Shown here: positions 14,802-23,947 of the stretch, in pieces
How positions within the stretch are numbered: the stretch's first letter is position 1
Layout: every line of letters starts with the position of its first letter
Assembly: GCF_900117415.1 (NCBI RefSeq)
Contig: NZ_FPEI01000004.1
Span: 310,001 to 374,000 of the forward strand
Direction: 5' to 3'
Length of the DNA stretch: 64,000 nt
Source: Hyphomicrobium sp. CS1BSMeth3
Lineage (GTDB): Bacteria > Pseudomonadota > Alphaproteobacteria > Rhizobiales > Hyphomicrobiaceae
Notes under the pieces: generated by a model
Seen by the model: the letters and a program-made list of their open reading frames with translations, nothing else
Told to the model about the DNA's origin: nothing
The model's database searches: none
Translations under genes and position numbers: made by a program

Positions 14802-15278
14802 CTAGGCGCCAGCGCCCGACTTCAGCCGGCCGATGTGGAGATCGAAGGGATCGAGGACGTCGATCGGCGCCGGGGCCTCGCGGCTCATGCGCATGAAGGC
14901 CTCGAAACGGAGCGTGTCCTCGTAGCTGTCGATGCGATAGATGAGGCCGTCCTTGACCTCGAACACGAGGCGCCGCGAGCCTTCGATGACATTGCCGGTC
15001 GTGCGGTGGCGATAGCGGAAAAATACCTGCGCGCGCACGATGTTGTCCTCGACGCTGACGATCGTCGGCTCGTAGGTGAGGTAGTCGAACTCGGCGAGCA
15101 TGGCATAGCCGAGATCGCGGCAGCTTTCGGGGCCGCGGTAGACGCCCGAAAGCGGCGCGGCGTCCTGGCCGTTATGAATTGTATAAACGACGTCCGGGTG
15201 ACCGTGCGCGACGGCCATCTCGAGATCCTGCACGCTCCAGCACGCGAAGAACGAGGCAACGACCGACCGACTGTCCAT
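14802..15278 (-). CDS. NTF2/SnoaL-like paralogue 6 (last of the array)
   Basis: 158 aa, one NTF2-like alpha+beta cone domain. It has the array's shared landmarks: W at residue 14 followed by QDL, EFDYLTYEPTIVSVEDN near residue 63, FRYRHRTTGNVIEG near 89, and LVFEVKDGLIYRIDSYED. It is the most diverged copy: the shared LVEAFMRL becomes RFEAFMRM and the C-terminal QQREAANE tail is lost. Start at 15278 is preceded by GAAGGAGCGGGGG. Such domains bind small hydrophobic ligands or act as isomerases/hydratases; no catalytic assignment can be made. Confidence 0.85.
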   Translation of the reverse strand: MDSRSVVASFFACWSVQDLEMAVAHGHPDVVYTIHNGQDAAPLSGVYRGPESCRDLGYAMLAEFDYLTYEPTIVSVEDNIVRAQVFFRYRHRTTGNVIEGSRRLVFEVKDGLIYRIDSYEDTLRFEAFMRMSREAPAPIDVLDPFDLHIGRLKSGAGA

Positions 15279-15340
15279 CCCCCGCTCCTTCTCCGAGCTC
15301 GCGCCCCCACCGTCGTGAAGTCCGCGAGCCCCTTCGTGTG

Positions 15341-15811
15341 CTAGGCAGAGCCCTGCCGCTCGCGCCGCGGCAGTTGTGGTGCCTTGGCAAGTTGCTTGGT
15401 CGCCAACCTGTACTCGGTAAGGCGCATGAAAGCCTCGACGAGCTGCGCATCGTGATATCCGTTGACGCGCACGATGAGGCCGTTCTTCACATTGAACACG
15501 AGCCGCCGCGTGCCTTCGAGAATGCCGCCCGTGCGCCGGTGCTGATACCTGAAGCTGACCTGGGCGCGCACGACGCTGCCCCTGACGCTGATGATGGTCG
15601 GCTCGTAGCGCAGATAGTCGAATTCCTCGAGCAGCGAGAACAGCGCATCGCGGCAGGCGTCGACCCCGCGCCATTCCCCGCCGAAGGGCAACGTCGAGCT
15701 CGTGACGTGAAGCTTGTATGTAATGTTCTCGTGGAAGAGCGCGGCCGTCATTTCGACGTCCTGCACGCCCCAGCGCTCAAAGAAAGCCTCCACAACCTCG
15801 CGGCTGCTCAT
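15341..15811 (-). CDS. NTF2/SnoaL-like paralogue 5
   Basis: 156 aa, NTF2-like. It aligns with the other copies without gaps over about 140 residues: MSSREVVEAFFERWGVQDVE at the start, PFGGEWRG, EEFDYLRYEPTIISV, FRYQHRRTGGILEGT, VFNVKNGLIVRVNGY and LVEAFMRLTE. It is separated from paralogue 6 by 62 bp, consistent with one transcript reading toward 14802. Upstream, a 172-bp space separates it from the GNAT gene. Ligand unknown. Confidence 0.87.
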   Translation of the reverse strand: MSSREVVEAFFERWGVQDVEMTAALFHENITYKLHVTSSTLPFGGEWRGVDACRDALFSLLEEFDYLRYEPTIISVRGSVVRAQVSFRYQHRRTGGILEGTRRLVFNVKNGLIVRVNGYHDAQLVEAFMRLTEYRLATKQLAKAPQLPRRERQGSA

Positions 15812-15983
15812 CTCTCAACCCCGCGTCCTTCCCCCAAATTGAACGTACATTACTCCGACTAAATATCAAACGCTGCGATGGTCGCAGATGCGCGGCGTAT
15901 CCGCACGTACGCCGCCGGATGATCAGGCGCCCCTGCCCGGCTCAGCCGGGGCGCTTTTGCCTGAAAACATTAGGTCTGCAAAA

Positions 15984-16598
15984 TCAAACAATTGGGATCT
16001 GGGGCGCTGCCTGTTTTGGCATCAGCCCCTCGAGGCGCGGGTCGGGGTAGCACTCGATGCCGCGCGCATAGGGAACGAAGCCGGAGCGGACGTAGAATGC
16101 CAAGGCATCTGGGTGATCGTTCGTGCAGGTATGGACCCAGAATCGGCTGATCCGCGGCGCGCGGCTCCAGGCCCGCTCGGTGGCCCGGTTCATCAGGTAC
16201 CGCCCTGCACCGATGCCGATCGCTTCCGCCACAACGCCGAAGAACGCGAGCTCGCACGCTCCGGCACTCCGAAAGTCGAGCTGGAGGAGCCCGATCCCGT
16301 CCGCACCCGCATATAGCGTGTAGGTCTCCACGGCGTCCGAGGAAAGAACGGCGCCGAGCTCGGCATCGCTGCGGCGCAATTGCGAGGCCCACAGCCAGGG
16401 CTCACCGACGAGCCGGAAAATCCGCCGGTACTCGGCGACATCGGCGGGCATCCTCCTGAGCGCGAGCCCGCCGGCCGTATCGGGACGCGGCGGCGGAGGC
16501 GTCAGCATCTCGAGATAGGTGACGACCTCGGCGATCCACCCGGGCGGGAGCATCTGCGAGCGCTGCGGCGGGAGTTGCGTGGCACCATCCTCTGCCAT
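15984..16598 (-). CDS. GNAT-family N-acetyltransferase inside the NTF2 array
   Basis: 204 aa. The C-terminal half has the GNAT acetyl-CoA fold: LAFFGVVAEAIGIGAGRYLM (strand 4 and the Q/RxxGxG/A-type loop), then RFWVHTCTNDHPDALAFYVRSGF, typical of the strand 5-helix 4 region with 'A..FY...GF'. The N-terminal ~60 residues are an extra segment. The start ATG at 16598 overlaps the stop of the upstream NTF2-like gene (ATGA), so the two are translated together. The C-terminus ECYPDPRLEGLMPKQAAP is proline-rich. Substrate unknown; linkage to the NTF2-like genes is the main clue. Confidence 0.87.
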   Translation of the reverse strand: MAEDGATQLPPQRSQMLPPGWIAEVVTYLEMLTPPPPRPDTAGGLALRRMPADVAEYRRIFRLVGEPWLWASQLRRSDAELGAVLSSDAVETYTLYAGADGIGLLQLDFRSAGACELAFFGVVAEAIGIGAGRYLMNRATERAWSRAPRISRFWVHTCTNDHPDALAFYVRSGFVPYARGIECYPDPRLEGLMPKQAAPQIPIV

Positions 16599-17095
16599 CA
16601 GCTCTGCCCCTCCCTGTCCTGCGGCGTCGCGCATGTCCGGGCACGCCCTTTCGGCAGCTCCGGCGGCGCCTGCACCTCGTTCGCGGCCTCGCGCTGCTGC
16701 GTCAGGCGCATGAAGGCCTCGACCAGCCCCGCATCATGATGCTCGTCGACACGCGTGATCAAACCATCCTCGACCGCGAATACCATGCGCTTGGTGCCGG
16801 CCAGCAGGCCGCCCGTGCGCCGATGATGGTAGCGGAACTCGACCTGGGCGCGAACCACATCGCCGTCCTCGCCGACGATGGTCGGCGCGTAGTGCAGATA
16901 GTCGAAGTCGGCCAGCACCGCGTAGAGGACCTCGCGGCATCTTTCGCGCCCGCGGGTCTCGCCTCCATGAGGGACCGCTGAATTCGACAGATACAGGTTG
17001 TACACGACGTCCTCGGCAGCCAGCGAAAGCGCCATGTCCACATCCTGCGCCTTCCAGTACTCGAAGAACAACGCGACGACGTCTCGCCTATCCAT
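16598..17095 (-). CDS. NTF2/SnoaL-like paralogue 4
   Basis: 165 aa from the ATG at 17095; an ATG four codons upstream (17107) is possible, but the array's other members begin at the equivalent of 17095 and GGAGCG precedes it. Landmarks: MDRRDVVALFFEYWKAQDVD, ADFDYLHYAPTIVGEDGDVV, FRYHHRRTGGLLAGT, LVEAFMRLTQQREAANE. Its stop overlaps the GNAT start by four bases, implying coupled expression. The C-terminal tail after the domain is polar and has ARTCATPQDREG, not shared with the others. Confidence 0.87.
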   Translation of the reverse strand: MDRRDVVALFFEYWKAQDVDMALSLAAEDVVYNLYLSNSAVPHGGETRGRERCREVLYAVLADFDYLHYAPTIVGEDGDVVRAQVEFRYHHRRTGGLLAGTKRMVFAVEDGLITRVDEHHDAGLVEAFMRLTQQREAANEVQAPPELPKGRARTCATPQDREGQS

Positions 17096-17191
17096 GCCGC
17101 GCTCCATGGGGCTTCCCGCGACCTCGCCCCTCTGCCGGCTGCCTCGACCATCCCCGCGGCACCCGCCGCCACAAACGCCACACCAACACCT

Positions 17192-17713
17192 TTACCTGCA
17201 CTCCTCCTTCTCGCACGGCCTCTTGCTGCCGGCCGTGGCCACAGGCTCCGGCCGCCGCTCGCCGAACCTCGGAATTTCCGGCGGCTGCACGACTTCGCCC
17301 GCGGCCTCGCGCTGTTGCGTGAGCCGCATGAAGGCTTCGACGAGCCCCTGGTCGAGGTACTCGTCGCACCGCACCACCATGCCATCCTTCACCCGGAAGA
17401 CGGTCCGCATGGTGCCTTCGAGATTGCCGCCGGTCCGACGATGATGAAACTTGAATTGCGTCTGCACGCGCACGACGTCGTCGTCCACGCCGACGATCGC
17501 CCGGTCGAACCTCAGATAGTCGAACTGCTCCAGCATCATGTGGAGCGTGGCCCGCATCGCATCCTTGCCGACGGTCACGCCGCCGAACGGCACGGCATCT
17601 TCGGAAACATACAAGGCGTAGAACACATCATCGCTGCAGTGCGCGAGCGTCGTCTCGACGTCCTGCGTATTCCAAGACGCGATGAGGGATTCGATCACGG
17701 AGCGCGCATTCAT
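17192..17713 (-). CDS. NTF2/SnoaL-like paralogue 3
   Basis: 173 aa. Closest relative in the array is paralogue 2 (about 60% identical by eye, gap-free over ~145 residues), sharing QDVE.TLAHCSDDV and VVRVQTQFK.HHRRTG, which the other copies lack. So this pair is the most recent duplication. Other landmarks: EQFDYLRFDRAIVGVDDD, VFRVKDGMVVRCDEYLD, LVEAFMRLTQQREAAGE. The 25-residue C-terminal tail ends GSKRPCEKEECR, highly charged. Start at 17713 with ATTCATCC context; 30 bp from the preceding gene's stop. Confidence 0.87.
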   Translation of the reverse strand: MNARSVIESLIASWNTQDVETTLAHCSDDVFYALYVSEDAVPFGGVTVGKDAMRATLHMMLEQFDYLRFDRAIVGVDDDVVRVQTQFKFHHRRTGGNLEGTMRTVFRVKDGMVVRCDEYLDQGLVEAFMRLTQQREAAGEVVQPPEIPRFGERRPEPVATAGSKRPCEKEECR

Positions 17714-17743
17714 CCAAACATCCCCGTCGCGCCAGCCCTCCAG

Positions 17744-18271
17744 CTATTCACAGTGCTTTTCATCGGGCGTCTCGGGGACAGAGGTCGGCCGCGCCGGTCC
17801 GCCGGCGCTCCCCTTCGGCGCCCGGGCCGGCAGGCTCGGCGGCACGAAGATGATGTTCTCGGCCTCGCGCTGGCGCACCAGACGCATGAAAGCCTCGACG
17901 AGGCTCTCGTCGAGGTACTCCTCGCAGCGTGCCACCAATCCGTTCCGCACCGTGAAGACCGAGCGCATCGAGCCTTCGAGATTGCTGCCCGTCCGCCGGT
18001 GATGGAGCTTGAATTGCGTCTGCACGCGCACGACGTCACCGGCAACGCCGACGACCACCTGGTCGAACTTCAGATAGTCGAACATCTCCAGCATCAGGTG
18101 GAGCGCGGCACGAACGGCGTCCTTTCCCTCCGAGGTGCCAGCGAAGGGGGCCGCCTCTGCCGCGATGTTCACCGAATAGACGACGTCGTCACTGCAGTGC
18201 GCGAGCGTCGACTCGACATCCTGCGTGCTCCAGCTCCTGATGACCTGCTCCACGACAACGCGCGGGCTCAT
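17744..18271 (-). CDS. NTF2/SnoaL-like paralogue 2
   Basis: 175 aa. Start ATG at 18271 chosen by alignment with the other copies (MSPRVVVEQVIRSWSTQDVE); the frame extends upstream to 18337 only because it runs into the repeat element. Shares TLAHCSDDVVY and VRVQTQFKLHHRRTGSNLEG with paralogue 3. The tail after the domain is Pro/Ala/Gly-rich. The 190-bp gap to the upstream paralogue 1 is almost entirely filled by a 168-bp double-hairpin element, so these two genes may be expressed at different levels. Confidence 0.87.
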   Translation of the reverse strand: MSPRVVVEQVIRSWSTQDVESTLAHCSDDVVYSVNIAAEAAPFAGTSEGKDAVRAALHLMLEMFDYLKFDQVVVGVAGDVVRVQTQFKLHHRRTGSNLEGSMRSVFTVRNGLVARCEEYLDESLVEAFMRLVRQREAENIIFVPPSLPARAPKGSAGGPARPTSVPETPDEKHCE

Positions 18272-18297
18272 GCCTGTGCTCCAACTACGGACTGCTA

Positions 18298-18465
18298 CTC
18301 GTGTGATGATCGAGAAATTCGCCACATGTCGCGGCACGGTATCGAGCGAATTTCTCGATCTGAATCACACGAGCAAGTTTATGCTTCTAGTGTCCCTTTT
18401 TGATTCCGAAGTTCGCTCGGAACACCAGCATCGAGATATGGCGAACTTCGGAATTGGGACACTAG
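18298..18465. repeat. Double-hairpin element, copy A
   Basis: 168 bp. Hairpin 1: outer arms CTCGTGTGAT and AATCACACGAG, inner arms ATCGAGAAATTCGC and GCGAATTTCTCGAT. Hairpin 2: outer arms CTAGTGTCCC and GGGACACTAG, inner arms ATTCCGAAGTTCGC and GCGAACTTCGGAAT. Lies between paralogues 1 and 2 of the NTF2 array; its terminal CTAG supplies the stop codon of paralogue 1. Close copies at 22740 and 23782. Confidence 0.88.
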
Positions 18466-18980
18466 CAGCCCTCCTCATCATGAACCTTGGAGGCCATCGA
18501 AAGCGGTGGCCTCATGACTTCGACCGGCGGCCGCTTCGGAAATGCCGGCGGCGGCACGATGTCGTTTGCAGCTTCGCGCTGCCGCACCAACCGCATGAAG
18601 GCTTCGACGAGCCCTCTGTCGACGTACTCCTCGCAGCGGACGACCAGGCCATCCTTGACCGTGAAGACCGTACGGTAGGACCCTCCGATGTCCGATCCGG
18701 TGCGGCGATGCCGATACCGGTATCGCGTATGGACCCGCACCACATCACCTTCGACACCCATGATGGTGGGCTCGTACTCCAGATAGTCGAACTCCTCTAT
18801 CATCTTGTAGAAAGCCGCCATCATCGCATCGCGGCCTTCTGTGACGCCGGCAAAAGGCGCCAGTTCCTCGGCAATATACAGCGCGTAGACGACATCCTCG
18901 GCCGTGAAAACGAACGTCGACGCGACATCCTGCGTTCGCCAGCGCTTGAGAACCTCCTCGATGACGGACCGCGGATCCAC
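18462..18980 (-). CDS. NTF2/SnoaL-like paralogue 1 (first of the array)
   Basis: 172 aa from a GTG at 18980, preceded by TTGGAGCATTCTG; this start aligns VDPRSVIEEVLKRWRTQDV with the ATG starts of the other copies, whereas an ATG at 19034 adds 18 unrelated residues. Landmarks: EEFDYLEYEPTIMGVEGDVV, RYRYRHRRTGSDIGG, VFTVKDGLVVRCEEYVD, LVEAFMRLVRQREAAND. Its TAG stop lies inside the last four bases of the double-hairpin element, so the original C-terminus was probably changed by that insertion. First gene of the transcript, so the promoter should lie in 18981-19150. Confidence 0.82.
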   Translation of the reverse strand: MDPRSVIEEVLKRWRTQDVASTFVFTAEDVVYALYIAEELAPFAGVTEGRDAMMAAFYKMIEEFDYLEYEPTIMGVEGDVVRVHTRYRYRHRRTGSDIGGSYRTVFTVKDGLVVRCEEYVDRGLVEAFMRLVRQREAANDIVPPPAFPKRPPVEVMRPPLSMASKVHDEEGC

Positions 18981-19150: not shown

Positions 19151-19930
19151 ATGGATCTCGGCATCAAGGGCAGGACGGCGATCGTGTGCGCGGCCTCGAA
19201 GGGCCTCGGAAAGGGCGTCGCGACGGCGCTGGCCCAGGAGGGCGTGAACCTCTTCATCACCGCCCGCACCAAGGCCGACATCGAGGCCGCGGCCGACGAG
19301 ATCCGCAAGGCCACGGGCGTCAAGGTGACCCCGGTCGTCGGCGACATCACCACCGAGGAGGGCCGCCAGCAGGTGCTCGCCGCCTGCCCCAATCCCGACA
19401 TCCTGATCAACAATGCCGGGGGCCCGCCGCCCGGCGATTTCAAGGACTTCGACCTCGACGACTGGCGCAAGGCCGTCGAGTGGAACATGATCACGCCGAT
19501 CGCGCTGATCAAGGCGACCGTCTACGGCATGATGGACCGCGGCTTCGGCCGCATCGTCAACATCACCTCGCAGTCCGTGAAGGCGCCGATCGCCTCGCTC
19601 GAGCTCTCGAACGGCGCGCGCACCGGCCTCACGGGCGCCATCGCCATCATCGCGCGCAAGGCCGTGCGCAACAACGTAACGATCAACAACATCCTGCCCG
19701 GTCCCTTCGACACCGACCGCCTGCGCGGGACGAGCAAGAAGATGGCCGAGGCCAGGGGCGTTTCGTTCGAGCAGATGTCCGAAGAGCGCAAGAAGGCCAT
19801 TCCCGCCGGCCGCTTCGGCAATACCGTCGAGTTCGGCGCCGCGACGGCGTTCCTCTGCTCCGAGCATGCCGGCTTCATCACCGGTCAGAACCTGCTGCTC
19901 GACGGCGGCATCTACCCGGGCTCGATGTAA
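19151..19930 (+). CDS. SDR-fold protein with altered catalytic Tyr/Lys
   Basis: 259 aa, classical short-chain dehydrogenase length. The cofactor glycine motif is AASKGLGKG (residues 14-22) and NNAG is at 87-90. The catalytic Ser is at 140 (NITS), but where YxxxK should follow the sequence reads LSNGARTGL: Tyr is replaced by Ser153 and Lys by Arg157. This belongs to a known divergent SDR subgroup with SNxxR in place of YxxxK, often annotated as 3-oxoacyl-ACP reductase. Whether it reduces a substrate is unclear. GACACAGGAGTGACGCC precedes the start. Confidence 0.88.
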   Translation: MDLGIKGRTAIVCAASKGLGKGVATALAQEGVNLFITARTKADIEAAADEIRKATGVKVTPVVGDITTEEGRQQVLAACPNPDILINNAGGPPPGDFKDFDLDDWRKAVEWNMITPIALIKATVYGMMDRGFGRIVNITSQSVKAPIASLELSNGARTGLTGAIAIIARKAVRNNVTINNILPGPFDTDRLRGTSKKMAEARGVSFEQMSEERKKAIPAGRFGNTVEFGAATAFLCSEHAGFITGQNLLLDGGIYPGSM

Positions 19931-20383: not shown

Positions 20384-20839
20384 ATGCTGATCGAGGATGC
20401 ACTCTTCAACGAGGACCTTGCACCTCAGCCACCGCAGGAGTGGCGCGACTGCGTCGTCCGCCGCACGGTATTCGACGCACTCGAGCTTGAAGGGCTGAGC
20501 TTCGAGGGCGTCATGGAAGGCTGCGCCGTCACGAGCACCGAATTCTACTGGGGGCTCTTCAATTGCGCCCTGGTCGCCGGCACGCGCTTCGAAGCCTGTC
20601 GTTTCCGGAGCACATCGTTCCGCGGCTGCACGTTCGTCGATTGCGAGTTCGTCGATTGCCGCTTCGAGCTCGACAATCTCGGCGGCGATTGCACGATCGA
20701 CGATTGCCTGATGGCCGCGTGCCGTTTCGTCGGCTGCACCTGGACGACGCGGGCGGGCGACGGCAAGCGCGACATCACGCGAACGCGCTGGCTCGGCTGC
20801 ACGCACGAGCGCTGCGAAGGTTTCGATGGGATGTTTTGA
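20384..20839 (+). CDS. Pentapeptide-repeat protein
   Basis: 151 aa. Residues ~50-120 show a run of five-residue units of the form (F/C)xx(C/F): LFNCALVAGTRFEACRFRST, then FRGCTFVDCEFVDCRF, with a Phe or Leu at the centre of each unit, as expected for a right-handed quadrilateral beta-helix. It is unusually cysteine-rich for this family. Pentapeptide proteins mediate protein contacts or mimic DNA (quinolone resistance), but no specific role can be inferred. It is bracketed on both sides by REP hairpins and 74-bp repeats. Confidence 0.85.
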   Translation: MLIEDALFNEDLAPQPPQEWRDCVVRRTVFDALELEGLSFEGVMEGCAVTSTEFYWGLFNCALVAGTRFEACRFRSTSFRGCTFVDCEFVDCRFELDNLGGDCTIDDCLMAACRFVGCTWTTRAGDGKRDITRTRWLGCTHERCEGFDGMF

Positions 20840-21164: not shown

Positions 21165-22676
21165 TCACCCCGCCCGCTGGCCCGCACCGAGCGCACAGGC
21201 AGCCGCACCTTCGCCCGCGATCTTGCCGAACACGGCACCCGACGTGAGGCCCGTGCCGCCCGGATAGTTGTGATAGAAGAGCCCGCCGACCAGTTCGCCC
21301 GCCGCATAAAGCCCCGGGATCGCCTGGCCGGCCGTATCCTCGACCTCGCAGCCCGTCGAGATCTTCAAGCCGCCGAACGTGAAGGTCAGCCCGCACGTGA
21401 CCTGATAGGCCTCGAAGGGCGGCTCATCGAGCACGTTCGCCCAGTTCGACTTCGCGACCTTCAGACCCCGCGTGCCGCGCCCGTCCTTGACCGCAGGATT
21501 GAACGGCACGTCCGTCATGACCGCCGCGTTGTAGGCCTTCAGCTCCGCGAGGCACTTCTCCGCGTCCACGCCTTCGAGCTTCTTCACCAGATCCTCGAGC
21601 GTATCGGCCGAGACCTTCGTCACGCGGCGAATGCGATACTCGTCGCGCAGCAGGTGCAGCACCTTCTTGTCGAAGATCTGCCAGGCCATCATGTCGGGCT
21701 GGTCTTTGATCACGTGGCCGTAGCGCGCGTACGTGTAATTGCGGAAGTCGAAGCCTTCATCGACGAAGCGCTCGCCGCGCGCATTGACCATGATGCCGAG
21801 CGGATAGCTGTGCTTCTGGAAATTGTCGCCGACGGAAAGATCGCCGAAGGGCGGCGCGTTGTAGTCCCAGCCGACGGCATGGCCGCTCGACCAGTGACCC
21901 CACGGCATGGCACCGATGTCGAGGGCCATCTTGATGCCGCCGCCGGTGTTGTAGCGCGTGCCGCGTACCTTCGCGAGCTCCCAGCCCGGGCCCATGTAGC
22001 GCGCGCGCATTTCCGCATTCGACTCGAACCCGCCGCACGCCAGCACCACCGCGCCCGCACGCAGGTCGCTCGTCCGCCCCTTGTGGCGCACCTTCACGCC
22101 CGTGACGCGCCCCGTATCGTCCGTCAGCAGCGACACGCCCGATGTCTCGTAGCGGATGTCGATGCCCTTCTTCTGGCAGATGTCGTGCTCCATATCGACG
22201 AGGCCCGGCCCGCCGCCCCAGATCTCGACGCAGAGCCCGCCCCAGAACTTGAACTTGCCGTCGACCTTGAAGGCTTGGCGCCCCTGCGAGGTCTGGAACT
22301 TCACGCCCTGCTTCCTGAGCCACTGCCAGGTCGAGAGGCTGTTGTGCACGAGGATGTCGCAGAGCTCCGGGTCCGTGCGGTACCGCGTCATGCGGTACAT
22401 GTCCTCGAAATACTGCTCCTCGGTGTACGTGCCGAAGTCCATGCTCGCGAGCTCGGCCTTGGAGAGATCGACGAGCGAGGTCACATCCTCGACGCTGTTG
22501 TAGACGAGGCGTGTCGCGCCGGCCGTATAGGTCGAGTTGCCGCCGCGCTCCTCGATGGTCGCGGCCTCGAGCATGATCACGCGCGCGCCCGCATCGCGCG
22601 CCGCCAGCGCCGCCGAGGCCGCTGCATTGCCCGCGCCCACAACGATCACGTCCGCATCAAGCGTCTCTTTCGACAT
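21165..22676 (-). CDS. tcuA: FAD-dependent tricarballylate dehydrogenase-like flavoprotein (TcuA-like)
   Basis: 503 aa. Member of the fumarate reductase/succinate dehydrogenase flavoprotein family. FAD motif DVIVVGAGNAA near residues 9-19, then EERGGNSTYTAGA, typical of TcuA. The C-terminal TFGGLKISTGCEV, PGLYAAGELVGG and NYPGGTGLTSGAVFG are the expected FAD/substrate cap motifs. TcuA oxidises tricarballylate to cis-aconitate in Salmonella; the specific substrate here is not proven, and no tcuB or tcuC lies nearby. Start at 22676 (GTGAGGAG upstream) rather than 22703. Confidence 0.85.
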   Translation of the reverse strand: MSKETLDADVIVVGAGNAAASAALAARDAGARVIMLEAATIEERGGNSTYTAGATRLVYNSVEDVTSLVDLSKAELASMDFGTYTEEQYFEDMYRMTRYRTDPELCDILVHNSLSTWQWLRKQGVKFQTSQGRQAFKVDGKFKFWGGLCVEIWGGGPGLVDMEHDICQKKGIDIRYETSGVSLLTDDTGRVTGVKVRHKGRTSDLRAGAVVLACGGFESNAEMRARYMGPGWELAKVRGTRYNTGGGIKMALDIGAMPWGHWSSGHAVGWDYNAPPFGDLSVGDNFQKHSYPLGIMVNARGERFVDEGFDFRNYTYARYGHVIKDQPDMMAWQIFDKKVLHLLRDEYRIRRVTKVSADTLEDLVKKLEGVDAEKCLAELKAYNAAVMTDVPFNPAVKDGRGTRGLKVAKSNWANVLDEPPFEAYQVTCGLTFTFGGLKISTGCEVEDTAGQAIPGLYAAGELVGGLFYHNYPGGTGLTSGAVFGKIAGEGAAACALGAGQRAG

Positions 22677-22739: not shown

Positions 22740-22906
22740 CTAGTGTGATGATCGAGAAATTCGCCACCTCCCGCGGCGCCGCATCGAGCGAATTTCTCGA
22801 TCTGAATCACACTAGCAAGTTTATGATTCTAGTGTCCCTTTTAATTCCGAAGTTCGCTCAGAACGCCGGCATCGAGGTGCGGCGAACTTCGGAATTGGGA
22901 CACTAG
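22740..22906. repeat. Double-hairpin element, copy B
   Basis: 167 bp. Hairpin 1 outer arms CTAGTGTGAT and AATCACACTAG: relative to copy A a C-G pair has become A-T on both sides. Hairpin 2 outer arms CTAGTGTCCC/GGGACACTAG, inner ATTCCGAAGTTCGC/GCGAACTTCGGAAT. Begins and ends with CTAGTGT/ACACTAG. Lies between the TcuA-like gene and the SDR gene. Confidence 0.88.
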
Positions 22907-23781: not shown

Positions 23782-23947
23782 CTCGTGTAATGATCGAGAA
23801 ATTCGCCACCTGTCGCGGCCGGTATGGAGCGAATTTCTCGATCTGAATCACACGAGCAAAATTATGATTCTAGTGCCCCTTTTGTTTCCGAAGCTCGCTC
23901 GGAACGTCAGCATCGAGGTGGGGCGAACTTCGGAAACGGGACACTAG
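23782..23947. repeat. Double-hairpin element, copy C
   Basis: 166 bp. Hairpin 1 outer arms CTCGTGTAAT/AATCACACGAG; inner ATCGAGAAATTCGC/GCGAATTTCTCGAT. Hairpin 2 outer CTAGTGCCCC/GGGACACTAG, inner TTTCCGAA/TTCGGAAA where copies A and B have ATTCCGAA/TTCGGAAT, a compensated change. Direct repeat of copy B on the other side of the SDR gene. Confidence 0.88.

Follow-up and report, generated by a model that had tools for sequence, protein, structure and literature searches.

In Hyphomicrobium sp. CS1BSMeth3, six tandem genes for small SnoaL_2/NTF2-like proteins and a single GNAT acetyltransferase gene embedded among them form an old, genus-specific array on the minus strand at positions 14802-18980 of the window, that is, of the whole 64,000-nucleotide stretch of DNA analysed (contig NZ_FPEI01000004.1, positions 310,001 to 374,000). 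The proteins are of a well-known kind, and the array is not by itself a new kind of system. Its six copies are most likely diverged small-molecule enzymes or binders that would work as homo- or heterodimers. The fuller reading that we favour, tentatively and with a probability of about 0.45, is that these pocket proteins, as homodimers or mixed dimers, share a common chemistry or mode of binding but differ in substrate according to their slot in the array, with the GNAT protein as a partner and with C-terminal tails that are dispensable. In the array, tandem paralogues of a single small pocket fold have persisted for a long time and have positional orthologues in several species; it is a clean natural example of this kind and a convenient place to test NTF2-like pocket divergence and the working of paralogues as mixed dimers.

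Open reading frames and profile searches show all six SnoaL_2 genes to be intact and transcribed in the same direction as the GNAT gene, in the order F, E, D, C, GNAT, B, A, as listed here together with an inserted repeat and the flanking gene:

19151..19930, plus strand: divergent SDR gene, flanking the array at the same position in all congeners (85-94% identical); listed for context only and not counted among the system's parts
18462..18980, minus strand: copy F, SnoaL_2/NTF2-like, 172 aa, GTG start at 18980, first in transcription order, tail ending DEEGC
18298..18461, minus strand: interspersed MITE-like repeat with two hairpins, lying between F and E, about 164 bp, specific to this genome's array
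17744..18271, minus strand: copy E, SnoaL_2/NTF2-like, 175 aa, ATG at 18271
17192..17713, minus strand: copy D, SnoaL_2/NTF2-like, 173 aa, ATG at 17713, structure modelled
16598..17095, minus strand: copy C, SnoaL_2/NTF2-like, 165 aa, ATG at 17095 (possible alternative start 17107)
15984..16598, minus strand: GNAT acetyltransferase, 204 aa from ATG at 16598, PF00583
15341..15811, minus strand: copy B, SnoaL_2/NTF2-like, 156 aa, ATG at 15811
14802..15278, minus strand: copy A, SnoaL_2/NTF2-like, 158 aa, ATG at 15278, tail ending SGAGA

The initial annotation, which described six one-strand paralogues alignable without gaps over some 140 residues, is confirmed in both respects: all six open frames score 43-51 bits against PF12680 (SnoaL_2, cut-off 27), align almost gaplessly from residue 1 to about 140, and have in common the landmarks W14, Q17-D18, FDYL (64-67), HR.TG (91-95) and EAFMR (126-130). 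Pairwise identities over residues 1-132 range from 41 to 66%, and similarity to copy D within the array is far beyond chance (E 3e-35 to 2e-64). The intergenic gaps of 96 and 172 nt inside the array and the inserted repeat leave transcription as a single operon unproven; a promoter scan found none, and terminator-like matches numbered 4 against 2.5 expected by chance. The repeat has some 41 long matches genome-wide (87-100% identity; DNA fold z -6.5), two of them elsewhere in the window at 22740-22902 and 23782-23943, and it is considered specific to this genome's array on the basis that the gap from F to the next gene is only 27-73 nt in the congeners G004 and G002.

The array lies at the same site, adjoining the divergent SDR gene, in all five species examined of this little-known Hyphomicrobiaceae genus of soil/wastewater type, with six copies in the window's genome (G000), five in G002, five in G003 (one of them split over a contig end), and four each in G004 and G001; uvrA is close by in congeners whose contigs are long enough. 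Members of the subfamily occur in 42 of the 103 Hyphomicrobiaceae genomes surveyed, more than three adjacent copies only in the array's own genus, and 385 genomes sampled across the class gave matches only in the query genome, apart from two weak single ones. Matching relatives include the records JALHOW010000003.1 ('Hyphomicrobiaceae bacterium') and CAUJKI010000600.1. Pairs or triples in tandem are also seen in G026, G042, G085, G513 and in a second cluster of the same genome (G000:C5:52-54 kb), and these resemble the array in subfamily and in their tendency to tandem duplication but do not exceed three adjacent copies, and no homologue of the array's GNAT was detected in G026 or G042. The second cluster, L074:5527-7398, consists of two or three diverged SnoaL_2 copies beside a threonine-synthase-like gene and is common to congeners (also L072 and L073). 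No relative was found in the viral contigs searched, and a literature search on tandem SnoaL-like arrays returned nothing relevant. The outgroup G018 has its closest single NTF2-like copy (C62) and its GNAT gene (C52, next to ribosomal-protein genes) on separate contigs, and their contexts are unrelated; from this distribution, the array was put together at the base of the genus, either around an older GNAT gene or jointly with one.

Phylogenetically the copies group by slot rather than by genome (the tree needs 20 changes of genome label, and shuffling the labels does not raise this number), with slot support across four species of 97/97 for F, 100/99 for B and 99/99 for A, while D pairs with the D of G003 (99/95). 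Copies D and E (17192/17744), taken initially for the youngest pair, are indeed the most similar within the window (65.9% identity over residues 1-132), but their sisterhood in G000 is rejected in a tree with relatives (p-AU 0.0003), so that the pair does not stem from a recent duplication and did not arise in this species. It follows that the differences in copy number, G004 being without C and G002 without D/E but with an extra A-like copy, include losses as well as gains. Judged from these trees, the copies are old positional orthologues, of which F, B and A are well supported and D/E and C less firmly resolved, and an ongoing burst of diversification finds no support, the copies belonging to stable positional lineages common to the species.

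Selection on the proteins divides between domain and tail. Between positional orthologues in clear slots, domain dN/dS is 0.08-0.28, with 0.37 for copy C against the C of G003, a pair whose orthology is unsure, whereas tail dN/dS, a rough value given the simple counting method and the shortness of the tails, reaches 0.5-1.0 in several comparisons and is highest in D, B and E. Flanking genes are more conserved still (0.04 for the TcuA-like gene, about 0.1 for uvrA, 0.06-0.17 for SDR). By these ratios the domain is under purifying selection and the tails are relaxed, which bears out the earlier remark that the domain is kept while the tails differ between copies; a copy in G001, where a stop after residue 140 removes the tail and leaves the domain, fits with tails being dispensable. 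The alternative that the paralogues are pseudogenes under relaxed selection is excluded, as the frames are open, none of the six copies in the window's genome is a pseudogene, and domain dN/dS stays at 0.08-0.37. A different and less likely explanation, that of a lineage-specific expansion whose largely redundant copies are kept for dosage or by drift with the GNAT gene as a bystander, could draw on the variation of copy number between four and six among species, on the same-subfamily pairs and triples in other genomes and in the second cluster, and on GNAT homologues that occur without the array in other genera; it sits poorly with the persistence of slots F, B and A in four of five species, each under purifying selection, and with slot-specific residues that stay fixed within their slots, unlike those of redundant copies.

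The model of copy D (pLDDT 89, above 90 for domain residues 1-137, with a disordered tail) has the helix and strand order of the NTF2 fold, recognised by a helical layer on a strongly curved beta sheet that forms a cone. Among solved structures it best matches 7epn/7epo, of ketosteroid isomerase type (Z of 17.7 and 17.6; 126-130 residues superposed at an rmsd of 1.5-1.7), together with SnoaL-like proteins, the NTF2-like 3ec9 and the limonene epoxide hydrolases 5aif/5aii, the whole range being Z 15-18. The fold is thus the one known from ketosteroid isomerase and limonene epoxide hydrolase, a cone with a single internal pocket, although having it in common does not imply the same function. The catalytic residues of the limonene-1,2-epoxide hydrolase of Rhodococcus are R99, D101 and D132. 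Although this enzyme (5aih, 5aif, 1nww) has the same cone-shaped fold and internal pocket (Z 15-18), its triad is not conserved in the copies: a profile alignment to 5aih places F/L/Y89, an invariant H91 and a slot-specific E/G/S118 at the Arg, Asp and Asp sites. Identity as such a hydrolase is thus rejected, the catalytic Arg-x-Asp and second Asp being absent and an invariant His standing at the first Asp site. Ketosteroid isomerase relies on Tyr14, Asp38 and Asp99 (C. testosteroni numbering). The copies resemble it (7epn, 1isk) in the cone-shaped fold with its internal pocket (Z 15-18) but appear to lack Tyr14 and Asp38, with a hydrophobic or small residue at position 10 and L/I/V at 34, on an hhalign match too weak to be decisive (probability 2.1%, Asp99 not covered) to a reference sequence identical to 1isk. 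Assignment to the SnoaL polyketide cyclases (PF07366, cut-off 28.4) was discarded, as only copy D passes (31.2 bits) and the others score 17.8-23.7 or not at all; a survey of the neighbourhood from 11.7 to 29 kb showed no recognisable polyketide synthase. The SnoaL_2 proteins of PDB 3ec9, 3grd, 3ebt and 3dm8 share sequence family and fold with the copies, but are single uncharacterised proteins, as opposed to four to six slot-specific paralogues with an embedded GNAT.

Across five slots, compared in four to five genomes, the residues Q17, D18, Y32, P42, G45, G49, D65-Y66-L67, R82, H91, R92, G100, R103, D121, E126, F128 and M129 never vary. They bear on whether the copies might be non-catalytic ligand-binding or carrier proteins that sequester or sense small molecules and perform no chemistry, an account to which we give a minor share of the probability. 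Many NTF2-like domains are indeed non-catalytic binders (PMC3924330), and the loss of the hydrolase triad (R to F/L/Y89, D to H91, D to E/G/S118) would agree with such a role, yet the roughly ten polar residues that are invariant across slots and species exceed the need of purely hydrophobic binding, and members that stay inside the cell are mostly enzymes (PMC3924330). The sequences of the copies show no evident signal peptide.

The idea that the family may be diversifying its ligand range finds partial support. With the inward and outward faces of three strands assigned via weak alignments to solved enzymes, slot identity accounts for more of the entropy at inward positions (0.70) than at outward ones (0.52; p 0.005, and p 0.006 after rate correction), in a test chosen after seeing the per-site table, and the slot-specific sites are 58, 102, 104, 118 and 120. 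Faster evolution of pocket-facing residues, a possibility raised initially, was not found on these inferred faces (relative rates averaging 0.74 for inward and 0.96 for outward positions, p 0.19), nor is there an ongoing burst. The fixation of inward positions by slot thus supports, without proving, a divergence of pocket binding.

The embedded acetyltransferase scores 26.4 bits against PF00583 (cut-off 20.7), which together with an acetyl-CoA loop was the basis for calling it a GNAT N-acetyltransferase; its EAIGxGAGR loop is conserved in all congeners. Its model has a GNAT-like order of strands and helices at a pLDDT of only 64, and a search of PDB sequences gave a single, insignificant match. 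The overlap with copy C reported initially is real but is not of the form ATGA: the junction reads AGC TGA TG GCA, a TGATG in which the stop (16600-16598) and the start (16598-16596) share 1 nt, the ATGA form occurring in the relative G003 (ATGATG), which also has TGATG between D and C. There is a short gap before GNAT in G002, and no overlap in G004 (without C) or G001 (gap); the overlap is therefore not conserved across congeners, and the position of GNAT inside the array is. As the neighbourhood survey confirmed, arrays of four to six copies include exactly one GNAT gene in five of five congeners, 68-83% identical across them, and this linkage and conservation argue for a functional link within the genus. 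GNAT homologues are present in 29 of 80 relatives, many of them without the NTF2-like family, so that GNAT does not need the array, and outside the genus no conserved GNAT neighbours were common to the close outgroups checked.

The role favoured here would be as follows. The copies, probably enzymes maintained as a set of non-equivalent members, would work intracellularly, each as a homodimer or in a mixed dimer with a neighbouring copy, and their targets would be small hydrophobic metabolites that are probably related to one another. The invariant polar set Q17, D65-Y66, R82, H91-R92, R103, D121 and E126 would provide a common chemistry or mode of binding and residues 58, 102, 104, 118 and 120 the different substrates. 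GNAT would have joined at the formation of the array as a partner expressed together with the copies, and could acetylate a ligand of the same pathway or be only an operon passenger, and the C-terminal tails would be dispensable linkers. MonBI and MonBII, two proteins of the NTF2-like superfamily that are active only as a heterodimer, one of them being inactive alone (PMC13311259, PMC8827043), are the best precedent for why several array copies could be needed together. Like Lsd19A/B, they are polyether epoxide hydrolases in which two NTF2-like paralogues work together, and mixed dimers of array copies are by comparison hypothetical; the array differs in having up to six copies and no epoxidase or polyketide synthase recognised beside it. 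By extension of this analogy, the copies could form a mixed multi-subunit assembly, which we consider improbable. Some subunits would have lost their catalytic residues and would help others to fold or pair with them, in the way that MonBI serves MonBII, while GNAT would modify either the subunits or the ligand that they handle; if true, the array would encode a modular family of enzymes that is kept together as a set.

Paralogous arrays are common among immunity genes, and the copies could in principle be a defence array, for instance one of NTF2-fold immunity proteins that have diversified to counter many polymorphic toxins. Some immunity proteins of such toxin systems do have NTF2-like domains (PMC3924330); against this very improbable assignment, none of the proteins has a PADLOC match, the neighbourhood surveyed (11.7-29 kb) holds no recognisable toxin-like gene, and the slots persist without rapid turnover, with domain dN/dS well below 1.

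Upstream of the array, beyond the divergent SDR gene, lie a TcuA-like FAD dehydrogenase, another SDR and leuCD, and on the other side of the array a cupin protein and uvrA. No recognisable pathway is formed by the array with the SDRs, the TcuA-like FAD dehydrogenase, leuCD and uvrA, and as the neighbouring genus (G016) has its homologues of SDR and of the FAD enzyme on contigs apart from each other, the neighbourhood gives no pathway for the array. At window positions 20384-20839 there is a small pentapeptide-repeat-like protein, present in G004 and not found at this place in G002, with no PADLOC match and a weak, below-cut-off match to the Hailong HalA model. The FAD dehydrogenase itself (window 21165-22676), flanked by SDR genes, scores 572 bits against NF006130, well above the cut-off for TcuA (tricarballylate dehydrogenase), and is 96-98% identical in congeners.
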